Source: Prevotellaceae bacterium
Lineage (GTDB): Bacteria > Bacteroidota > Bacteroidia > Bacteroidales > UBA932
Direction: 5' to 3'
Assembly (NCBI GenBank): GCA_031278545.1
Contig: JAITKF010000076.1
Location: 1-38,027 of the forward strand
Length of the DNA: 38,027 bases
The position numbers were made by a program, and so were the translations under genes. The notes below the pieces were generated by a model. That model did no database searches and was not told the origin of the DNA. It saw only the letters and a list, made by a program, of their open reading frames with translations. Every line of letters starts with the position of its first letter. Within the stretch, counting starts at the first letter, position 1. This document shows, in pieces, positions 8,829-23,038 of this stretch.

Positions 8829-8988
8829 AGGCTTTTTTTTTAATTTGGCTAACTTTTATTAAAACCATCGACACTTTTGTTAGGCTATTGAAGCGCCGAT
8901 GATCGCTAGTAAAGGACTAAATAAAGGGAAAGAAATGGCCGCCGGATGGGAACCGGGGCAGGCTAAATGAACGTGAAATGACAATTCA

Positions 8989-9020
8989 TTTGGATGTATG
9001 AGAAAATAGTTGTACTTTTG
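8989..9020 (+). promoter_or_regulatory. Bacteroidota-type promoter TTTG-N20-TACTTTTG upstream of serC
   Basis: TTTG at 8989-8992, TACTTTTG at 9013-9020; close to the consensus TTTG-N19-TAnnTTTG. Confidence 0.6.
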
Positions 9021-9053
9021 ATAAACAAAATGAAAATAGAATACCCCCACCAC

Positions 9054-10145
9054 ATGAAAAAAGCGTATAATTTTAACGCAGGCCCCTGCGTCCTCCCCCA
9101 ATCCGCCATCGCCGCAGGCATAGATGCCTTACGTGATTTTAAAGGCAGCGGCATGTCCGTCGTCGAAATCTCGCACCGAAGCAAAGACTGGGAAGCGGTA
9201 ATGACCGAATGCGACACCCTATGGCGCGAACTGCTACACATCCCCGACAACTACCGCATCCTGTTCCTCGGCGGCGGCGCCAGCATGCAGTTTTTGATGG
9301 TACCCTACAACCTGCTGGAACGGAAAGCCGCCTACCTGGAAACCGGCGTATGGGCAAAAAAAGCCTTCACCGAAGCCCGGCTGCTGGGTGGCGATGCGGC
9401 AATAAAAGTAGCCTCGTCGGCCGAGCGGAACTACTCATACATCCCCAAAGGATACGAAATCCCACACGACGCCGACTATTTCCACATCACCACCAACAAC
9501 ACAATCTACGGCACCGAAATCCATGAAGACTACGACAGCCCGGCGCTACTGGTTGCCGACATGTCGTCCGACATCATGAGCCGGCCGGTAGACATCCGCA
9601 AATACGGCCTGATATACGGCGGCGCCCAAAAGAACGTCGGCACAGCCGGCGTCACATTTGTCATCATCCGCGAAGATATTTTAGGACGGGTATCACGCCC
9701 GTTGCCAACAATGCTCGACTACCGCACACACATCAAAAACGCCTCAATGTTCAACACCCCGCCGGTATTCCCCATCCTGATTATGAACGAAACCCTGAAA
9801 TGGATAAAAGCACAAGGCGGAGTACCGCACATATACCAGCAAAACCTCGAAAAAGCAACACTGCTATACAACGAAATCGACCGTAACAAACTATTCACCG
9901 GCACCGCCGCACAAGAAGACCGCTCCCTGATGAACATCTGCTTCGTAATGAACAAAGAACATGCCGACAAAGAAGACGCATTCCTCACCTTTGCCAAAGA
10001 ACGCGGCATGGTCGGCATCAAAGGCCACCGCTCCGTAGGCGGATTCCGCGCATCAACCTACAACGCCTGCCCCACAGAAAGCATAAAAGCCCTAATCACC
10101 TGCATGCAGGAATTTGAAAAAAACACCCTTCAACCATCAAAATGA
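9054..10145 (+). CDS. serC: Phosphoserine aminotransferase
   Basis: [65 protein letters not shown] (PLP lysine region), [11 protein letters not shown]. Start chosen at 9054 (ORF opens at 8994). Confidence 0.95.
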
Positions 10146-11059
10146 AAACACTCATAGCCACAGAAAAACCCTTTGCCGAAGAAGCAATTACCGGCATCCG
10201 CCAAATCATCGAAAACGCCGGCGGAACCCTCCACCTACTCGAAAAATACACCGACACAAACACCCTCTACAACGCCGTCGCCGATGCCGACGCACTAATC
10301 GTACGCTCCGACAAAGTCACAAAAACCCTCATCGACGCCGCCAAACAACTGAAAATCGTCACACGCGCCGGCGCCGGATACGACAACATCGACCTGCCCG
10401 CCTGCACCGCCCGCGGCATCGTCGCAATGAACACCCCCGGACAAAACGCCAACGCCGTCGCCGAACTCGCCATCGGATTGATGATATACGCCGCACGAAA
10501 CACCTTCCAGCCGGGAACAGGCACCGAACTAAAAAACAAAAAACTCGGCATCCACGCCTACGGAAACGTCGGACGACAAGTAGCAAAACTCGGCAAAGGA
10601 CTCGGAATGGAAACCCTCGCCTTCGACCCATTCATACCCAACAACACCATCACACAAGACAACGTACAACCCTGCACATCAGTCGAAGAACTATACCAGA
10701 CGTGCCACTACATCTCCCTACACATCCCGGCCACAGAACAAACAAAACAATCCATCGGACGACGCCTACTATCCACCATGCCAAAAGGCGGCTGCCTAAT
10801 CAACACCGCCCGCAAAGAAATAATACACGAAAACGAACTAGCCGACATCCTCCACCAACGCCCCGACATAAAATACATAACCGACATCGCCCCCGACAAC
10901 CACACCACCCTACAAAAAAACTTCGGCACACGCTACTTCGCCACCCCCAAAAAAATAGGCGCCGAAACCACCCAAGCCAACATCAACGCAGGCATAGCCG
11001 CCGCCCAGCAAATCGTAAACTTCTTCACACACAACGACCGGACATTCCAACTAAACTAA
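10142..11059 (+). CDS. serA: D-3-phosphoglycerate dehydrogenase (NAD-dependent 2-hydroxyacid dehydrogenase)
   Basis: [42 protein letters not shown]; overlaps the serC stop (ATGA). Confidence 0.92.
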
Positions 11060-11090
11060 CACAAACCCCACAATAACACCCCCCACACAC

Positions 11091-12332
11091 ATGGTAAAAA
11101 TTAAACCCTTCGCGGCCCTCCGCCCCCCGAAAAAAATAGCACATGAAATAGCATCGCGCCCATACGACGTACTAAACTCACAAGAAGCCAAAGCCGAAGC
11201 CGGCGAAAAATCACTACTCCACATCATCAAACCCGAAATCGACTTCGACCCCATCATCGACGAACACTCCCCCCAAGCCTACGCCAAAGCCGTAGAAAAC
11301 TTCCACCTCTGGCAAAAACGCGGCTGGCTACAACAAGACCCAAAAGAAACCTACTACATCTACGCACAAACAATGAACCACCACACCCAATACGGACTCG
11401 TAGCCGCCGCTGCCGTTGACGACTACCTTGAAGGACGAATCAAAAAACACGAACTCACACGAAAAGACAAAGAAGACGACCGGATGATACACCTGCGAAT
11501 CCAAAACGCAAACATCGAACCCGTCTTCCTCACCTACCCCGACGCACCCGAAATAAACGAACTCATAAAAAACATCACCAAAAACCACCCCCCAGAATAC
11601 GACTTCACCACAAAAGACAACATTAGCCACCACCTCTGGACCATAAACAACCCCCACACCAACACCCGCATCACACAAATCTTCGCCCACATCCCAGCCC
11701 TATACGTAGCCGACGGACACCACCGCACCGCCGCCGCCGCACGAATAGGACTCGAAAAACGACAAACCAACCCGCACCACACCGGCCACGAAAAATACAA
11801 CTACTTCATGGCCGTCATCTTCCCCGAAAGCCACCTGCAAATCATCGACTACAACCGCCTAATCAAAGACCTAAACGGACTCACCCCCGCACAACTCCTC
11901 GACCAACTAAACACCCCCTTCGACATCACCCAACAAGGCCCCCAACCATACACCCCCACCAGACCACACAACCTCTCCATGTACCTCGACGGACAATGGT
12001 ACTCACTAAAAGCAAAACCCGCCACCTACAACGACAACGACCCCATCGCCACCCTCGACGTAACAATCCTATCCACCCACGTACTCGACCACATCCTCCA
12101 CCTCGGCGACCTACGCACCTCCAAACGAATCGACTTCGTCGGCGGCATCCGCGGACTACACGAACTACAACGACGCGTAGACAACGGCGAAATGGCCGTT
12201 GCCTTTGCACTCCACCCCGTCACCATGAAACAACTAATCGACATCGCCGACAACGGCCACATCATGCCCCCAAAAACCACCTGGTTCGAACCAAAACTAC
12301 GCAGCGGCCTGACCATACACAAACTATCCTAA
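11091..12332 (+). CDS. DUF1015 family protein (serC/serA-associated)
   Basis: KPFAALRPPKKIAHEIASRPYDVLN, LYVADGHHRTAAAARIGL, FVGGIRGLHELQRRVDNGEMAVAFALHPV; third gene of a serC-serA-DUF1015 cluster. Confidence 0.9.
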   Translation: MVKIKPFAALRPPKKIAHEIASRPYDVLNSQEAKAEAGEKSLLHIIKPEIDFDPIIDEHSPQAYAKAVENFHLWQKRGWLQQDPKETYYIYAQTMNHHTQYGLVAAAAVDDYLEGRIKKHELTRKDKEDDRMIHLRIQNANIEPVFLTYPDAPEINELIKNITKNHPPEYDFTTKDNISHHLWTINNPHTNTRITQIFAHIPALYVADGHHRTAAAARIGLEKRQTNPHHTGHEKYNYFMAVIFPESHLQIIDYNRLIKDLNGLTPAQLLDQLNTPFDITQQGPQPYTPTRPHNLSMYLDGQWYSLKAKPATYNDNDPIATLDVTILSTHVLDHILHLGDLRTSKRIDFVGGIRGLHELQRRVDNGEMAVAFALHPVTMKQLIDIADNGHIMPPKTTWFEPKLRSGLTIHKLS

Positions 12333-12345
12333 AACATCACACAAA

Positions 12346-12529
12346 ACAACAACCCCACTAAAAACGAACCCCTAGTCCCACTAAAAACGAGCCCCTAGTC
12401 CCACTAAGAACTAGCCCCTAGTCCTACTAAGGACTAGCCCCTAGTCCTACTAAGGACTAGCCCCTAGTCCTTAGTAGGACTAGCCCCTCATCCTTAATAA
12501 GACGAACAGCTAAAACCACTAAAAACACC
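12346..12529. repeat. 23-bp tandem repeat array (~8 units) containing imperfect palindromes CTAGTCCT-ACTA-AGGACTAG
   Basis: Units starting at 12369, 12392, 12415, 12438, 12461 and 12484 keep exact 23-bp phase; degenerate flanking units at 12346 and 12507. It fills most of the spacer between convergent genes. Confidence 0.92.
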
Positions 12530-12532
12530 CCC

Positions 12533-13726
12533 CTACCACAACCCCAACTCCCGCCTAATACCCACCGGGATAGCATCCCTATGCACAACGACATTAATAG
12601 ACTTATACCGCACAAACGCCTCGGAAACATACCAAAACCCCTTATACAACCCCGACTCACCCCAAGAATTCTTCACCATATAATACCTCCTCCCCGCCTG
12701 ATCCCGGGCCACACCATAAATAAGCATCCCATGATCATCCGTCGTCTGCAAATTATCGAACGCCTCCTGACGGACAGCCTGCGTAATAACCTTCTCATAA
12801 CCCGGCTTGCCGGAATAAAGCTCCGCTTCGCGGTCACGTTGCGACAACCCCAGCCAACGCGCCTGGTCGGAATCAGACATATCGGCCAAATTAACATCAG
12901 GCACAACCGCCACCCCATCACGCGAAAAACCCCTCTCGCTCACATCGGCCCCCCATGCAACAACATACCCCTGTTCAAGACCATAATCAATAACACCCAT
13001 CAACTCCTCCAGCGGTAAATTATACGAATCCGACCAGCGCCAATTATCGGGAATCTCCAACGCAAAACGACTATAAAACGGATGATGCGTAAACGACGTC
13101 AACGACACATAATCATCAGGCTCGATACCCAACGACGCCATAAACGTCAACGGCGTATACTCCTTACCGCCGTAAATAAACCGTCCGGGAACAACGCCCA
13201 GATAAGCATCCACGATCCCCTTAAAACCCTCAAGCCACACGGTCGACAATTTCCGGTTCGGATCCTTAACGATTGCCTCGACGTAAGCTTTCGCCGCCGC
13301 ATCCAACTCGGCATGGACATGCTTATCTTCCCCATATTGCAGGCCATTCATAGCCTGTTCGGGCACGATACCGTAATACTTCAGAACATAGAGTACGTCG
13401 TAGAACGAACCACCGCCGGCAAAATTACCATGTCCATGCAGCCGAACATATTTCACCGCCTTATCAATATAGGAACGGTGTACGATAAACATTTCCGAGA
13501 GATCATACTCCCCTTTTCCCGTCCGCAGCAATTCAGCTTCGATTAGGCCTAACGCCGAAAAACTCCAGCAAGTACCCGATCGGTTCTGGTTTTTGACCGA
13601 CGTTATAGGTAATTCACGGACAGTTGTAAAAATATAACCATCCTCCTTCCGCTGTTCATCTTGCGCCCACGCCGGGCCAACAAGCAGCATTAAAAATAAA
13701 AATAACCGTATACTCATACCATTCAT
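12533..13726 (-). CDS. Secreted C1-family (papain/bleomycin hydrolase-like) cysteine peptidase
   Basis: Signal peptide; NQNRSGTCWSFSALGLIEAELL (Cys active site), DDHGMLIYGVARDQAGRRYYMVKNSWGESGLYKGFWYVS (His/Asn). Confidence 0.9.
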   Translation of the reverse strand: MNGMSIRLFLFLMLLVGPAWAQDEQRKEDGYIFTTVRELPITSVKNQNRSGTCWSFSALGLIEAELLRTGKGEYDLSEMFIVHRSYIDKAVKYVRLHGHGNFAGGGSFYDVLYVLKYYGIVPEQAMNGLQYGEDKHVHAELDAAAKAYVEAIVKDPNRKLSTVWLEGFKGIVDAYLGVVPGRFIYGGKEYTPLTFMASLGIEPDDYVSLTSFTHHPFYSRFALEIPDNWRWSDSYNLPLEELMGVIDYGLEQGYVVAWGADVSERGFSRDGVAVVPDVNLADMSDSDQARWLGLSQRDREAELYSGKPGYEKVITQAVRQEAFDNLQTTDDHGMLIYGVARDQAGRRYYMVKNSWGESGLYKGFWYVSEAFVRYKSINVVVHRDAIPVGIRRELGLW

Positions 13727-13727
13727 T

Positions 13728-13836
13728 GTTAATAGTTAATAACTCTTAATTCTTAATTCTTAATTCTTAATTCTTAGTTCTTAGTTCTTAGTTCTTAGTT
13801 CTTAGTTCTTAGTTCTTAGTTCTTAGTTCTTAGTTC
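13728..13836. repeat. Heptanucleotide tandem repeat (GTTAATA x2, ACTCTTA, ATTCTTA x4, GTTCTTA x8, partial GTTC)
   Basis: Strict 7-bp periodicity over ~109 bp. It occupies the whole sufB-to-peptidase spacer, from 1 nt before the peptidase start codon into the sufB stop codon. Confidence 0.95.
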
Positions 13837-15268
13837 AACCCACGCTTCCTTCCAGCGACACCGCCAGCAACTTCTGCGCTTCCACAGCAAATTCCATCGG
13901 CAACTGATTCAATACCTCGCGGGCATAGCCATTGACAATAAGTCCGACGGCATCTTCGGTCGAAATACCGCGCTGGTTACAATAAAACAACTGATCCTCG
14001 CCAATACGCGAAGTAGTCGCCTCATGTTCGACAATAGCAGTATCATTATCGCTCTCGATACAAGGAAACGTATGAGCCCCGCAAAGGGAACCCAACAGCA
14101 AACTGTCGCATTGCGAATAATTACGGGCATTATCGGCAGAAGCGGACATCTTCACCAGACCACGGTAAGCATTCTGGCTATAACCGGCCGAAATACCCTT
14201 ACTCACAATCCGGCTACGCGTATCCCGCCCGATGTGAATCATCTTCGTACCCGTATCGGCCTGCTGACGATGATTCGTAACGGCCACCGAATAAAACTCG
14301 GAACTCGAACGGTCGCCCATAAGTACCGTCCCGGGGTACTTCCACGTAATAGCCGAACCGGTTTCGACCTGCGTCCACGACAAGCGGCCATTCTCGCCCC
14401 GGCAAATACCCCGCTTCGTCACAAAATTAAACACCCCGCCACGCCCCTGCCGGTCGCCCGGATACCAATTCTGGACAGTCGAATACTTCACCTCGGCATC
14501 CTTCAGCACGACGATTTCCACCACCGCCGCGTGCAGTTGGTGCTCGTCGCGCCGCGGGGCCGTGCACCCCTCAAGATAACTGACATAGCTCCCCTCGTCG
14601 GCCACAATCAACGTTCGCTCGAACTGCCCCGTGCCCCGCGCATTGATACGGAAATAACTCGACAACTCCATCGGGCAACGCGTATGCTTCGGAATATAAC
14701 AAAACGAACCATCACTAAACACCGCGCTATTCAACGCCGCAAAAAAATTATCACCCACCGGCACGACCGTCGCCAAATACTTCTTCACCAAATCAGGATA
14801 ATCGCGCACAGCCTCACTGAACGAACAAAAAATAATCCCCTTTTCAGCCAACGCCTCGCGGAACGTCGTCTTCACCGACACACTGTCGAACACCGCATCG
14901 ACCGCCACGCCCGACAACATATTCCGTTCCCCGAGCGGAATCCCAAGCCTGTCGAACGTCGCCTGCAACACAGGATCGATACCCGTCGCCACAAGACCCT
15001 TCGGCGCCGCATAATAAATAATACCCTGGTAATCTATCGGCGGAATACGCAAATGCGCCCACGCAGGCATCCTCATCGCCTGCCACCGCCGGAACGCATC
15101 CAAACGGAAATCAAGCATCCACGACGGCTCGCCCTTCTTCGACGAAATCAACCGGACGATATCCTCATTCAACCCACGCGGAATAAACTCCTGCGCCAAA
15201 TCTGTCGTAAACCCGTGCTTATACTCAGATTCGACAATCGTCTCCAACCTATCCTTCTCTTCACTCAT
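13835..15268 (-). CDS. sufB: Fe-S cluster assembly protein SufB
   Basis: [87 protein letters not shown]. Confidence 0.95.
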
Positions 15269-15273
15269 AGACG

Positions 15274-15281
15274 CAAAGGTA
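15274..15281 (-). promoter_or_regulatory. Bacteroidota -7 box TACCTTTG 5 nt upstream of the sufB ATG
   Basis: CAAAGGTA on + strand; minus-strand TACCTTTGcgtctATG. Confidence 0.55.
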
Positions 15282-15363
15282 CATTTTAATTACGAATTAA
15301 AAATAACCAGCCGCCGGACGACTGCCACAATACCACACAACCGGCGGTTTATAATTTTTTACT

Positions 15364-15371
15364 TACTTTTG
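15364..15371 (+). promoter_or_regulatory. Bacteroidota -7 box TACTTTTG upstream of the cupin gene
   Basis: TAnnTTTG match 20 nt upstream of ATG 15391; no clear -33. Confidence 0.5.
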
Positions 15372-15390
15372 CACTCTCCGAACATCAATA

Positions 15391-15759
15391 ATGAATAAAA
15401 ACATACAAAACATGAAAACACAAAGCAACCTCTTCCTTCTCGAAAACGAATTACCATGGGAATCCGGCGGAAAAGGCATCCGGCGTCAAATAATGGGATA
15501 CGACGGGCAACTGATGCTCGTCAAAGTAGCCTTTGAAACAGGCGCCACCGGCGCCGAACACGCCCACTACCACTCGCAATCGACCTACGTAGCCGCCGGC
15601 ATATTTGAACTAAACATCGAAGGAGTAAAAAAAATCCTACGAAAAGGCGACGGTTACTACATCCCTCCCGACGTCCGGCACGGCTGCCGCTGCCTCGAAG
15701 AAGGCCTGCTCATCGACTGCTTCAGCCCCCTCCGCGCCGACTTCCTCAACCCAAAATAA
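15391..15759 (+). CDS. Small cupin-domain protein
   Basis: GAEHAHYHSQSTYVAAGIFELNIEGVKKILRKGDGYYIPPDVRHGCRC double cupin motif; start may be 15391 or 15412. Confidence 0.88.
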   Translation: MNKNIQNMKTQSNLFLLENELPWESGGKGIRRQIMGYDGQLMLVKVAFETGATGAEHAHYHSQSTYVAAGIFELNIEGVKKILRKGDGYYIPPDVRHGCRCLEEGLLIDCFSPLRADFLNPK

Positions 15760-15852
15760 CATGAACGGCACAACCCCACCCCCGTCCACGACAAGAAATA
15801 AACTACACTGCGTAGTGGGCCCCCAACAACCCGGCAACTCAACAAAAAAACC

Positions 15853-15860
15853 TACCTTTG
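15853..15860 (+). promoter_or_regulatory. Bacteroidota -7 box TACCTTTG upstream of the ABC ATPase
   Basis: TAnnTTTG match 19 nt upstream of ATG 15880. Confidence 0.5.
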
Positions 15861-15879
15861 CAAAAAGAAACATCGCACC

Positions 15880-16809
15880 ATGAATATATTAGAAACAGAA
15901 AACATAACGAAACAATACACCCATCACCGGGCATTAGACAACGTCAGCATAGCCGTACCGAAGGGCGCAATCTTCGGACTGCTGGGGCCGAACGGCGCGG
16001 GAAAAACAACCCTCATCCGCATCATCAACCAAATCACCGCCCCCGACAGCGGCGCCATCACCTTCGACGGACGCCCCCTCGCCGCCAACGACATCTACAA
16101 AATCGGATACCTCCCCGAAGAACGCGGACTATACAAAAAAATGAACGTCGGCCAACAAGCCATCTACCTCGCACGCCTCAAAGGAATGTCGCGCCACGAC
16201 GCCACCACCGAACTCAAACGATGGTTCCACAAATTCAACATCCAAACATGGTGGAACAAAAAAGTCGAAGAACTATCGAAAGGAATGGCACAAAAAATAC
16301 AATTCCTCATCACCATCCTACACCGCCCGCCACTACTCATCTTCGACGAACCATTCAGCGGATTCGACCCCATCAACGTCAACCTCCTCAAAGAAGAAAT
16401 CCTCTCCCTGAAAGCCGCCGGCAGCGCCATCATCTTCTCCACACACAACATGGCCTCCGTCGAAGAACTATGCGACGAAATCTCACTCATCGACCACGCA
16501 CGAGTAGTACTCTCAGGAAAACTACACGAAATCCGCCGACAATACGGCGACAACCTCGTTGAACTAACCTGCCGCACCCACCACGACCATCCCCTCGCCC
16601 TACAAATACCCAACTACACCATCACCGGCAACGAATACATACACGGATGGCAAAAAGCCCTCATCCGCCTCCAACCCGGCCAAACAACCAACGGACTGCT
16701 ACAACAACTGCTCCCAAAAACCGAAATCAAAGAATTCCGCGAACGGATACCCTCCATGAACGACATCTTCCTCAAAGTCGTCCAACAAACCCCCACAACC
16801 AATGCCTAA
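15880..16809 (+). CDS. ABC transporter ATP-binding protein (ABC-2/NatA-like)
   Basis: Walker A GLLGPNGAGKTTLIR, signature ELSKGMAQKIQF, Walker B LLIFDEPFSGFDP, H-loop STHNMASVEELCD. Confidence 0.93.
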   Translation: MNILETENITKQYTHHRALDNVSIAVPKGAIFGLLGPNGAGKTTLIRIINQITAPDSGAITFDGRPLAANDIYKIGYLPEERGLYKKMNVGQQAIYLARLKGMSRHDATTELKRWFHKFNIQTWWNKKVEELSKGMAQKIQFLITILHRPPLLIFDEPFSGFDPINVNLLKEEILSLKAAGSAIIFSTHNMASVEELCDEISLIDHARVVLSGKLHEIRRQYGDNLVELTCRTHHDHPLALQIPNYTITGNEYIHGWQKALIRLQPGQTTNGLLQQLLPKTEIKEFRERIPSMNDIFLKVVQQTPTTNA

Positions 16810-17674
16810 AATCGCCTTCATCATGAACCCCGTATCGGGAACAGGAAACAAACGCACGCTCTGGAAACACATCGGCGAAACCTTCGGACTGCTGCCCAAC
16901 TACGAAACTCTCCTCTACACCACCCAATACCCCGGCGACGGATACCAACAAGCCAAACGATACGCCGAAGCAGGATACGACACCGTCGTCGCCGTCGGCG
17001 GCGACGGCACCATCAACGAAATAGCCCGCGCACTAATACACACCCCCACCGCCCTGGGCATCGTACCAATAGGATCCGGCAACGGACTCGCACGACACCT
17101 CAAAATCCCCATGAACTGCAAAAAAGCGCTCCACATCATCAAACAATCCCGCATACAACCCACCGACGCCGCACGAATCAACAACAAAATCTTCTTCTGC
17201 ACCGCCGGAATCGGCTTCGACGCACTCGTAGGACACCTCTTCAACACCTCCAAAACACGAGGCCTCTCAAAATACATCAAACACTCCACCACCGCACTCC
17301 TCCACTACACCCCGCAAGAATACCGCCTGCACATCGACGGACAAAGCCTCCTCCGCACCGCATTCCTCATCACATTTGCCAACGCCTCGCAATGGGGCAA
17401 CAACGCCTACGTCGCACCCCTGGCCGACAACCACGACGGTAAACTCGACATCGTAATATGGAAAAACATACCACGCAGCGACCTCCCCTTCATGCTGCCC
17501 AAACTATTCAACAAATCCCTCCACCGGTCGCCCCACATCGACACCTTCCGCGGACGCTACATCACCGTCGAACGAGCCCACGACGACTACGTACACTTCG
17601 ACGGCGAATCCTGCACAATGGGGAAAAAACTATACATCGAAATAATACCCCACGCACTAAACGTACTCTTTTAA
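16802..17674 (+). CDS. Diacylglycerol kinase-family lipid kinase (YegS/DagK-like)
   Basis: IMNPVSGTGNKR, VAVGGDGTINEIARAL, GIVPIGSGNGLARHLKIP; overlaps the upstream ATPase gene by 8 nt. Confidence 0.92.
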   Translation: MPKIAFIMNPVSGTGNKRTLWKHIGETFGLLPNYETLLYTTQYPGDGYQQAKRYAEAGYDTVVAVGGDGTINEIARALIHTPTALGIVPIGSGNGLARHLKIPMNCKKALHIIKQSRIQPTDAARINNKIFFCTAGIGFDALVGHLFNTSKTRGLSKYIKHSTTALLHYTPQEYRLHIDGQSLLRTAFLITFANASQWGNNAYVAPLADNHDGKLDIVIWKNIPRSDLPFMLPKLFNKSLHRSPHIDTFRGRYITVERAHDDYVHFDGESCTMGKKLYIEIIPHALNVLF

Positions 17675-17694
17675 ATCAACCAACAAATCAACAA

Positions 17695-18888
17695 ATGAAA
17701 AAATTCCAAGAATACTTAAAAAGCGAACTGGCCGCCATCGAAACAGCCGGCCTATACAAAAACGAACGAATAATCGTAACCCCACAACAAGCCATCATCC
17801 GCATCGCCGACGGACAAGAAGTAATAAACCTCTGCGCCAACAATTACCTCGGCCTCTCCAACCACCCACGCCTAATACAAGCCGCACAAACAGCCATCAA
17901 CGAACGCGGCTACGGCATGTCGAGCGTACGCTTCATCTGCGGCACACAAGACCTGCACAAAGAACTGGAAGCAGCCATATCACGCTACTTCCGGACAGAC
18001 GACGCCATCCTCTACGCCGCCTGCTTCGACGCCAACGGCGGAGTATTCGAACCTCTGTTCGACGAACGCGACGCCATCATCTCCGACGCCCTCAACCATG
18101 CCTCCATCATCGACGGCGTAAGGCTCTGCAAAGCGCAACGATTCCGCTACGCCAACGCCGATATGGATGAACTGGAAAACTGCCTGAAAACGGCCCGCTC
18201 GCAACGCTTCCGCATCATCGTAACCGACGGCGTATTCTCGATGGACGGCAACGTAGCGCCGGTCGATAAAATCTGCTCCCTCGCCGAACAATACGACGCC
18301 CTCGTGATGGTCGACGAAAGCCATTCGGCAGGCGTCGTCGGACGAACAGGACGCGGCGTCAGCGAACATTTCAACACCTACGGCCGAATCGACATCTACA
18401 CCGGCACGCTCGGCAAAGCATTTGGCGGAGCCATCGGCGGATTTACTGCCGGACGACAGGAAATTATCGCCATGCTGCGCCAACGCTCGCGACCCTACCT
18501 GTTCTCTAACTCCATCCCGCCAGCGGTAGCCAAAGCCGGAATCGAAGCCTTCAAAATGCTGGACGAAAGCGACGCCCTGCACCACCGGCAACAGGAAAAC
18601 GTACGCTATTTCGTCGACCGAATGCTCGCTGCCGGCTTCGACATCAAACCCACGCAAAGCGCCATTTGCGCCGTCATGCTCTACGACGCCAAACTCTCGC
18701 AAACCTTCGCCGACCGGATGCTCGACGAAGGCATATACGTCGTCGGATTCTACTATCCGGTAGTACCGCAGGGGCAGGCGCGCATCCGCGTACAACTCTC
18801 CGCCGCCCACGAACAGCCACACCTCGACAAAGCCATCGAAGCCTTCGTAAAAGTAGGAAAAGAACTGGAGATTATTAGAAATACATAG
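17695..18888 (+). CDS. kbl: Glycine C-acetyltransferase (2-amino-3-ketobutyrate CoA ligase)
   Basis: LCANNYLGLSNHP, RGYGMSSVRFICGTQDLHKELE, VDESHSAGVVGRTGRGVSEHF, TGTLGKAFGGAIGGF; start chosen at 17695 (ORF opens at 17458). Confidence 0.92.
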   Translation: MKKFQEYLKSELAAIETAGLYKNERIIVTPQQAIIRIADGQEVINLCANNYLGLSNHPRLIQAAQTAINERGYGMSSVRFICGTQDLHKELEAAISRYFRTDDAILYAACFDANGGVFEPLFDERDAIISDALNHASIIDGVRLCKAQRFRYANADMDELENCLKTARSQRFRIIVTDGVFSMDGNVAPVDKICSLAEQYDALVMVDESHSAGVVGRTGRGVSEHFNTYGRIDIYTGTLGKAFGGAIGGFTAGRQEIIAMLRQRSRPYLFSNSIPPAVAKAGIEAFKMLDESDALHHRQQENVRYFVDRMLAAGFDIKPTQSAICAVMLYDAKLSQTFADRMLDEGIYVVGFYYPVVPQGQARIRVQLSAAHEQPHLDKAIEAFVKVGKELEIIRNT

Positions 18889-18930
18889 CGACGGTGATAG
18901 TATAAACATCCCCCTAACTCCCCGATTCAA

Positions 18931-19965
18931 ATGGACTGGTTACTCGGTAAAACACTCGAAGAGCTAACAGCGCTGGCGACACAGCAGGGATGGCCGTCGT
19001 ACGTCGGGCGACAGATGGCCGATTGGCTGTACCGGAAAAAAGCAGGGACGATAGACGCCATGACCAACCTCCCAAAAACAGTGCGGGCGACGTTGAGCCG
19101 GCAGTTCGAGGTGGGCGGCTTTGCCCCTGCAACGGTGCAGCAATCGACCGATGATACGAAGAAATACCTCTTCCCAACCCGCGCCGGTCATTTCATCGAA
19201 ACGGTGATGATCCCCGACGCCGAGCGGGCGACACTCTGTGTCTCGTCGCAAGCGGGATGCCGGATGGGATGCCGGTTTTGCATGACAGCGCGGCAAGGAT
19301 TCCAGGGCAACCTATCGACCGGCGAAATACTGGCGCAATTCCACCGCGTGGCCGAGAGCGACCGCCTCACCAACGCCGTGTACATGGGCATGGGCGAACC
19401 GATGGACAACCTCGAGGAAGTCCTCACAAGCCTGCACATCCTCACCGCACCGTGGGGATGGGCGTGGAGCCCGCGCCGCATAACGGTATCGACCATCGGT
19501 ATCACACCGGCCATCCGGCGCTTCCTCAACGAAAGCGACTGCCACCTCGCCATCAGCCTCCACAACCCCTTCGACGCGGAACGCCGCGACCTGATGCCCC
19601 TGCAAAAAACATGGCCGATAGCCGACATCGTCCGCCAACTGCGCACTTGCGACTTCTCGGGACAACGGCGCGTCAGCTTCGAATACATCCTCTTTGCCGG
19701 ACTCAACGACAGCGGACGTCATGTCAACGAACTGGCGCGGCTACTACACGGGATGGAATGCCGCATCAACCTCATCCGCTTTCATCCCATCCCCGGCTCG
19801 CCCCTGCGCTCCCCGAACAACGAGCAGACGATACTTTTCCGAAACCGCCTCGCCCAAAAAGGACTCCTTACCACCATCCGCGCCTCCCGAGGACAAGACA
19901 TCATGGCCGCCTGCGGCCTGCTGTCGACCGAATCATCGAATACCAACGTAAAACGTAAAGCCTAA
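18931..19965 (+). CDS. rlmN: 23S rRNA (adenine(2503)-C(2))-methyltransferase, radical SAM
   Basis: CVSSQAGCRMGCRFCMTARQGFQGNLSTGEI, MGMGEPMDNLEEV, RITVSTIGITPAIRRFL. Confidence 0.95.
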   Translation: MDWLLGKTLEELTALATQQGWPSYVGRQMADWLYRKKAGTIDAMTNLPKTVRATLSRQFEVGGFAPATVQQSTDDTKKYLFPTRAGHFIETVMIPDAERATLCVSSQAGCRMGCRFCMTARQGFQGNLSTGEILAQFHRVAESDRLTNAVYMGMGEPMDNLEEVLTSLHILTAPWGWAWSPRRITVSTIGITPAIRRFLNESDCHLAISLHNPFDAERRDLMPLQKTWPIADIVRQLRTCDFSGQRRVSFEYILFAGLNDSGRHVNELARLLHGMECRINLIRFHPIPGSPLRSPNNEQTILFRNRLAQKGLLTTIRASRGQDIMAACGLLSTESSNTNVKRKA

Positions 19966-19985
19966 GCCGCATCTTGAATTTCCGT

Positions 19986-22969
<2,984 letters not shown>

Positions 22970-22976
22970 TTTATCC

Positions 22977-23038
22977 CTCGTCGTGGACGAGAACAAAACT
23001 ACATCGTGCAGTTGGGCATTCCTGCCGCGCGCGGCAGG
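22977..23038. terminator. Two hairpins between convergent ligA and the thiamine pyrophosphokinase gene
   Basis: CTCGTC-GTG-GACGAG (22977-22991) and the perfect 18-bp palindrome CCTGCCGCGCGCGGCAGG (23021-23038); no T-tract. Confidence 0.5.

Follow-up and report, generated by a model that had tools for sequence, protein, structure and literature searches.

Hairpin minisatellites with 21- and 23-bp units in a Bacteroidales genus: a 23-bp array with one inverted unit and its probable origin by slippage and template switching

Between two convergent genes of a Bacteroidales genome lies a gap that is filled almost entirely by short palindromic units, one of which is turned round. The locus raises the question of what such an array is and how it came about. 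It lies in the window, by which we mean the whole stretch of 38,027 nucleotides that was analysed, on contig C40 of the MAG G000 (2.08 Mb, 79% complete). An earlier, sequence-only reading of the gap had described about eight units in exact 23-bp phase between convergent genes, and had named a bidirectional terminator, a protein-binding array or a repeat family as possible roles. The features of the locus are as follows.

11091 to 12332, plus strand: DUF1015 gene (PF06245), the left neighbour.
12349 to 12532, no strand assigned: the whole array, units U1 to U8 in 23-bp phase, occupying nearly all of the 200-bp gap.
From 12349: U1, decayed, in phase.
12372 to 12394, plus strand: U2, decayed, CTAGTCCCACTAAAAACGAG followed by CCC, with the loop ACTA.
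12395 to 12417, plus strand: U3, CTAGTCCCACTAAGAACTAG followed by CCC, with two mismatches to the core palindrome.
12418 to 12440, plus strand: U4, a perfect 8-4-8 hairpin, CTAGTCCT-ACTA-AGGACTAG, with a CCC spacer.
12441 to 12463, plus strand: U5, of the same sequence as U4.
12464 to 12486, minus strand: U6, the inverted unit, CTAGTCCT-TAGT-AGGACTAG, with a flipped loop and the CCC spacer unflipped.
12487 to 12509, minus strand: U7, decayed, CTCATCCTTAATAAGACGAACAG, with a flipped-type loop (TAAT).
12510 to 12532, plus strand: U8, a decayed unit of the forward type, CCACTAAAAAC.
12533 to 13726, minus strand: C1-type peptidase gene (PF03051/PF00112), the right neighbour, convergent with the DUF1015 gene.
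13744 to 13836, no strand assigned: heptamer tract TCTTAGT/TCTTAAT, 13 copies, beyond the peptidase gene.

The array contains five to six clear 23-bp units and two or three decayed ones that are still in phase. When the phase is counted from 12349, U2 to U6 stand out clearly and decay has affected U1, U7 and U8, so the description of about eight phased units between convergent genes (DUF1015 on the plus strand, the peptidase on the minus strand) was fair. TRF called 12354-12488 with a period of 23, 5.1-5.2 copies and a 92-94% match, or alternatively with a period of 46, at a score of 184; the best score in 60 Markov-1 simulated windows (periods 15-60) was 58. By the head-to-tail criterion (units of 10-100 bp, above chance) the array is a minisatellite. 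Three units (U4, U5 and U6) are perfect 8-4-8 hairpins, and U4 and U5 carry the ACTA loop and the 8-bp arms that had been noted for the central units. In U7, the position pair 3:18 is C:G in place of A:T.

The gap folds far more stably than its shuffles on both strands, with z values of -10.7 for the plus-strand RNA, -7.8 for the minus-strand RNA and -10.0 for the DNA. The minus-strand RNA is predicted to fold almost all of the array into a single long hairpin, in which decayed pairs are retained as G-U pairs and U2 pairs with U7 over 17 bp with the use of such pairs. No Rfam model matched the window at its gathering score.

As the sequence-only reading had stated, the inverted unit U6 reproduces the 20-mer of U4 and U5 in exact reverse complement; it is matched on the minus strand at 12464-12483 with zero mismatches. 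Since the arms are perfectly complementary, the inversion of U6 comes down to turning the 4-nt loop from ACTA to TAGT, that is, four simultaneous changes. The spacer of an 8-4-8 hairpin has been replaced by its exact reverse complement, and the arms are intact. Exact loop inversion within intact arms is a known signature of template switching at perfect inverted repeats (PMC8604942), and this supports the earlier suggestion that the unit arose by template switching at a hairpin. The class of arrays described below was scanned systematically for flipped loops; this gave no second clean case, with two trivial shift matches in self-palindromic units. In one 42-bp array (L145 15253) the second 21-mer resembles an inverted copy of the first, as judged by eye only.

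When the core is taken as ancestral, every change in U2, U3 and U7 apart from a few transversions is, on the plus strand, either G to A or T to C. These changes match the strong regional substitution bias of G000, and on this ground the outer units seem to be copies of the core that have decayed. Nine CTAG tetranucleotides lie at 12372-12483 (112 bp), out of 16 in the window; the number given before was correct, and the remark that CTAG is rare holds for G000, 607 kb of which contain 107 against 864 expected, an approximately eightfold depletion.

Some observations concern the region as a whole. At 8985-23000 of the window, with a peak at 10500-13000, the GC skew reaches -0.57 and the AT skew +0.53, whatever the gene direction. 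The orthologous region in G004, the closest genus mate, has no strand skew. The changes in DUF1015 that are specific to G000 comprise 54 G>A, 28 T>C, 27 G>C, 3 C>T and 0 A>G, and have no strong dinucleotide context. Similar skewed islands occur on other contigs of G000, and the regional skew resembles mutation of a long-exposed single strand. A tie between arrays and strand-biased islands was weak in G000 (circular-shift p 0.018) and absent in G002, G004 and G005, and was not adopted.

The sequence of the array is confined to this locus. A search that tolerated up to 3 mismatches gave no match to the 20-mer in G000 outside the window, and blastn of the array gave no match in eight genus mates. 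The 20-mer was found in no viral contig, and a viral origin was set aside. A motif common to the 23-bp arrays was also rejected, as these share no word of more than 7 bp with the core unit of the window. The suggestion of a repeat family thus fails for the sequence, with a single locus and no dispersed copies in G000, and stands as a class of architecture and period, as many arrays of unrelated sequence are present in the genus.

U3 shares ACTAAGAACTA with heptamer tracts of G000, and the tract at 13744-13836 is of the same ACTAAGA type. Heptamer tracts of the GAACTAA/GAACTGA/GAGTTAA type occur at many gaps of G000, including, besides the one in the window, L153 9840-9984, L155 282-336, L160 234-337 and 16973-17051, and L162 146-214. 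Genus mates have heptamers of their own, for example TACGAAT in G005 and CATAACT in G002.

The class was analysed in about 1.2 Mb, comprising 607 kb of G000 and six genus mates, with 1.15 Mb of other Bacteroidales for comparison; gene calls outside the window were longest-ORF calls. TRF found approximately 7-19 tandem arrays per 100 kb in the five larger genus samples, against approximately 2 in the other Bacteroidales. The periods in the genus were sharply distributed, with 36 arrays at 21, 13 at 23, 14 at 42 and 7 at 41, against 0 at 20, 2 at 22 and 2 at 24. Some of the TRF arrays of period 21 are heptamer tracts (3 x 7) or lie within frames that are open by arithmetic; the periods 23, 41 and 46 cannot be explained in either way. 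In an independent count based on exact 14-mer recurrences, from which tracts with an internal period under 10 were excluded, the genus had 132 tandem loci, with 1 at period 20, 47 at 21, 4 at 22, 14 at 23, 4 at 24, 7 at 41 and 11 at 42. The other Bacteroidales had 24 loci and no peak at 21 or 23. In samples of the related genera g26, g24 and g18, 4 of 10 loci were of 21 bp, and there were hardly any in more distant genera of the family.

The unit sequences are mostly private to each locus, and few pairs of loci share more than expected by chance. The genus holds a clade-specific class of locus-private arrays with units of 21 or 23 bp, dimers of 42 or 46 bp and inverted pairs of 41 bp. We found no published description of 21/23-bp bacterial minisatellites or of palindromic tandem arrays in Bacteroidales within open-licence full text. 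The assemblies are fragmented MAGs, many of whose contigs break off within an array, so that copy numbers may be mis-assembled.

In the hairpin units of the class, the arms are usually of 6-8 bp and the two unpaired stretches total 5-9, usually 7 or 9; the array in the window, at 8+4+8+3, is in line with these. Most of the 42- and 46-bp units are forward dimers. In each of the seven 41-bp units, two halves of about 20.5 bp are inverted with respect to each other (inverted match p 0.00-0.09), with two matched blocks flanking an unmatched stretch of 4-5 nt. Two 41-bp arrays of G000 (L125 11195 and L154 11531) have arms in common and different loops. Over 19 hairpin arrays, the variation per site was 0.037 in the arms and 0.099 elsewhere in the unit (Fisher p 2e-11, a value that is only indicative, given non-independent sites and a choice of arms from the consensus). 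Some arrays of period 21 or 23 are only weakly palindromic. At L125 17377-17737, between convergent genes, two 23-bp arrays that are inverted copies of each other flank a terminator-like hairpin with A/T tracts; together the two arrays make one long inverted repeat.

Four gaps (those of the window, L125, L162 and L149) were compared between species. In G004 the two genes that border the array of the window lie about 42 bp apart, with no array and a short ATTCCTA-like heptamer run. At the L125 gap, 23-bp arrays in G000 and G004 and a 21-bp array in G007 are all of different sequence; G005 and G008 have no array there, and in G002 the contig ends. At the L162 gap an array is present in G000 and none in G004, which has other repeats. 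At the L149 gap the hairpin CCCAGAT-TACT-ATCTGGG of a 23-bp unit is kept in G000 and G002 with changed spacers, and one unit in G002 carries a paired A-T to G-C change, CCCGGAT/ATCCGGG. Downstream of the same L149 gene, G004 has a 42-bp array of other sequence. The comparison indicates that arrays can persist, be replaced or vanish. The stretch L149 6200-7048 had many partial copies in each of the five mates searched, frequently where contigs end, and no tRNA was found in it; it holds a dispersed element or repeats and was useless as an anchor.

The reading that we prefer, with a probability of roughly 0.6, is that slippage together with template switching by the polymerase produced these clade-specific hairpin minisatellites; we infer this copying mechanism, and likewise the absence of a sequence-specific function, from the sequences. 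A short hairpin-forming sequence in an intergenic gap would be duplicated head to tail by replication slippage. Template switching of the polymerase between the two arms would then keep the arms complementary, and would occasionally flip the loop to give an inverted unit, while arrays would be gained, replaced or lost in intergenic gaps. Slippage with template switching would account for U6 and U7, for the 41-bp inverted pairs and for the mirrored arrays at L125, since inverted copies around a hairpin would be the expected leftover of fold-back copying. Both loop inversion and the homogenisation of arms have been recorded as marks of polymerases that switch templates at inverted repeats (PMC8604942, PMC8794818), and the flipped and paired-change units would be natural records of this process in bacteria. 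It is worth noting that selection could yield both the lower variation of the arms and the paired A-T to G-C change in G002, so that the lower arm variation could equally reflect selection on structure. In addition, neutral slippage gives no reason for 21 or 23 over 22 or 20, and the weakly palindromic arrays of these periods also count against this reading.

The SbcD hairpin nuclease was not found in the six genus members searched, and its absence would allow palindromes to persist. Of the 80 genomes in the family of G000, 7 gave an SbcD (TIGR00619) match above the cut-off. Most family members thus lack it, among them genera in which the sample shows no arrays; its absence is therefore at most permissive, and loss of SbcCD as the specific cause of the arrays was rejected. 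MutS is present throughout, including G000.

The sharp periods admit another explanation, which we regard as improbable, namely that a dedicated enzyme or an architecture-reading protein makes or maintains hairpin arrays of any sequence with a fixed ruler of 21 or 23 bp. The footprint of such a ruler would be sharp peaks at 21 and 23, 41-bp inverted pairs and different arrays at the same gap in different species. The unit length of tandem repeats is usually thought to be set by chance at each locus. That about half of the tandem loci of the genus have one of two unit lengths, with differing sequences, points to a physical or an enzymatic ruler. An enzymatic ruler would amount to a genome-shaping activity of a new type; with a physical one, the arrays would offer a clean test of how hairpins and DNA helicity set the slippage length.

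It is similarly unlikely that the arrays serve as bidirectional terminators or stabilisers of mRNA 3' ends, in which stacked hairpins would halt polymerase or exonucleases from both sides. The array in the window lies between convergent genes, about 20-45 bp from each stop codon, the gap folds as strongly as described above, and in the minus-strand fold the decayed pairs of the long hairpin are kept as G-U; co-directional arrays are also somewhat closer to the upstream stop (21 of 32). The class, however, is not enriched in convergent gaps, as its convergent, co-directional and divergent gaps number 8, 32 and 6 against 91, 374 and 93 background gaps. An intrinsic terminator, with a GC-rich hairpin followed directly by a U-tract, is absent on the plus strand, which has no U-tract, and the scan found one weak site on the minus strand, with a 10-pair stem containing 3 GC pairs. 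At L125 a conventional terminator-like hairpin is already present between the two arrays. The G-U bias in the window is expected anyway from the regional bias of G>A and T>C substitutions, and of 5 other arrays that combine one-sided changes with co-directional neighbours, 4 would yield a coding-sense RNA with A-C mismatches, not G-U pairs. Selection at the RNA level was thus rejected as a reading of the one-sided G-U changes, as the coding-sense strand would usually be the wrong one. The bidirectional terminator named at the outset is not supported as a general role, given the lack of enrichment in convergent gaps, the lack of a plus-strand U-tract and the single weak minus-strand site; a terminator role is possible at the gap of the window and is not a property of the class.

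We consider it equally doubtful that a dimeric architecture-recognising protein, for example a nucleoid or structure-specific protein that recognises a hairpin, a bend or spaced half-sites, binds along one face of the DNA to units spaced by two helical turns. The symmetric units, the sharp periods near two turns (21, 42, 63), the lower variation of arms than of loops, and the one slot at which species share a conserved hairpin unit are consistent with such binding. On the other hand, 23 bp is a non-integral number of turns, and the units differ in sequence between loci, so that one sequence-specific protein cannot serve all of them.

A regulatory operator array, for example of the CTAG type, controlling a neighbouring gene is very improbable: multiple perfect inverted repeats with CTAG ends would suit it, but the array is flanked by the 3' ends of the two genes, away from their starts, and is absent from the same gap in G004. 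Least probable of all, and rejected, is the view that the array belongs to a dispersed family of REP/BIME-type palindromes that owe their spread to a RAYT transposase, because the likeness in unit size and hairpin form to REP/BIME palindromes, which are intergenic, of 20-40 bp, sometimes clustered, and GTAG- and CGTC-tagged (PMC3733652), is outweighed by the facts that REPs share their sequence genome-wide and associate with RAYT transposases, whereas the present unit is private to one locus of G000 (a MAG that is ~79% complete), is in none of eight mates, and is accompanied by no match to the Y1 transposase (PF01797) in G000 in a search that was positive in 5 of 14 control genomes.

With bacterial minisatellites (VNTRs) the arrays share head-to-tail, near-identical units, single loci, a mostly intergenic position and turnover between species; they differ in their many hairpin units, their genus-wide periods of 21 and 23 with dimers, and one inverted unit. 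Plasmid iterons are also tandem units of about two helical turns, but the arrays here are chromosomal, occur at many loci per genome with differing sequences, and adjoin no initiator gene. The closest likeness in mechanism, in exact loop inversion and perhaps in arms that are kept complementary, paired changes included, is to template switching and spacer inversion at quasipalindromes (PMC8604942, PMC8794818, PMC7202029), which have been described for single inverted repeats, whereas here the events lie within tandem arrays.

Two minor observations were made in the course of the analysis. Three gaps of G004 (L219 2337-2660, L132 5219-5301 and L224 848-906) contain 'CGTCATTGCGA...GAAGCAATCC'-like repeats, which we take to be reminiscent of CGTC-tagged REPs. 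Finally, public MAGs titled Alphaproteobacteria (L028-L031, L036, L038, L040, L042 and L043) encode DUF1015 proteins about 70% identical to that of the window, which reflects either gene transfer or mislabelled MAGs.
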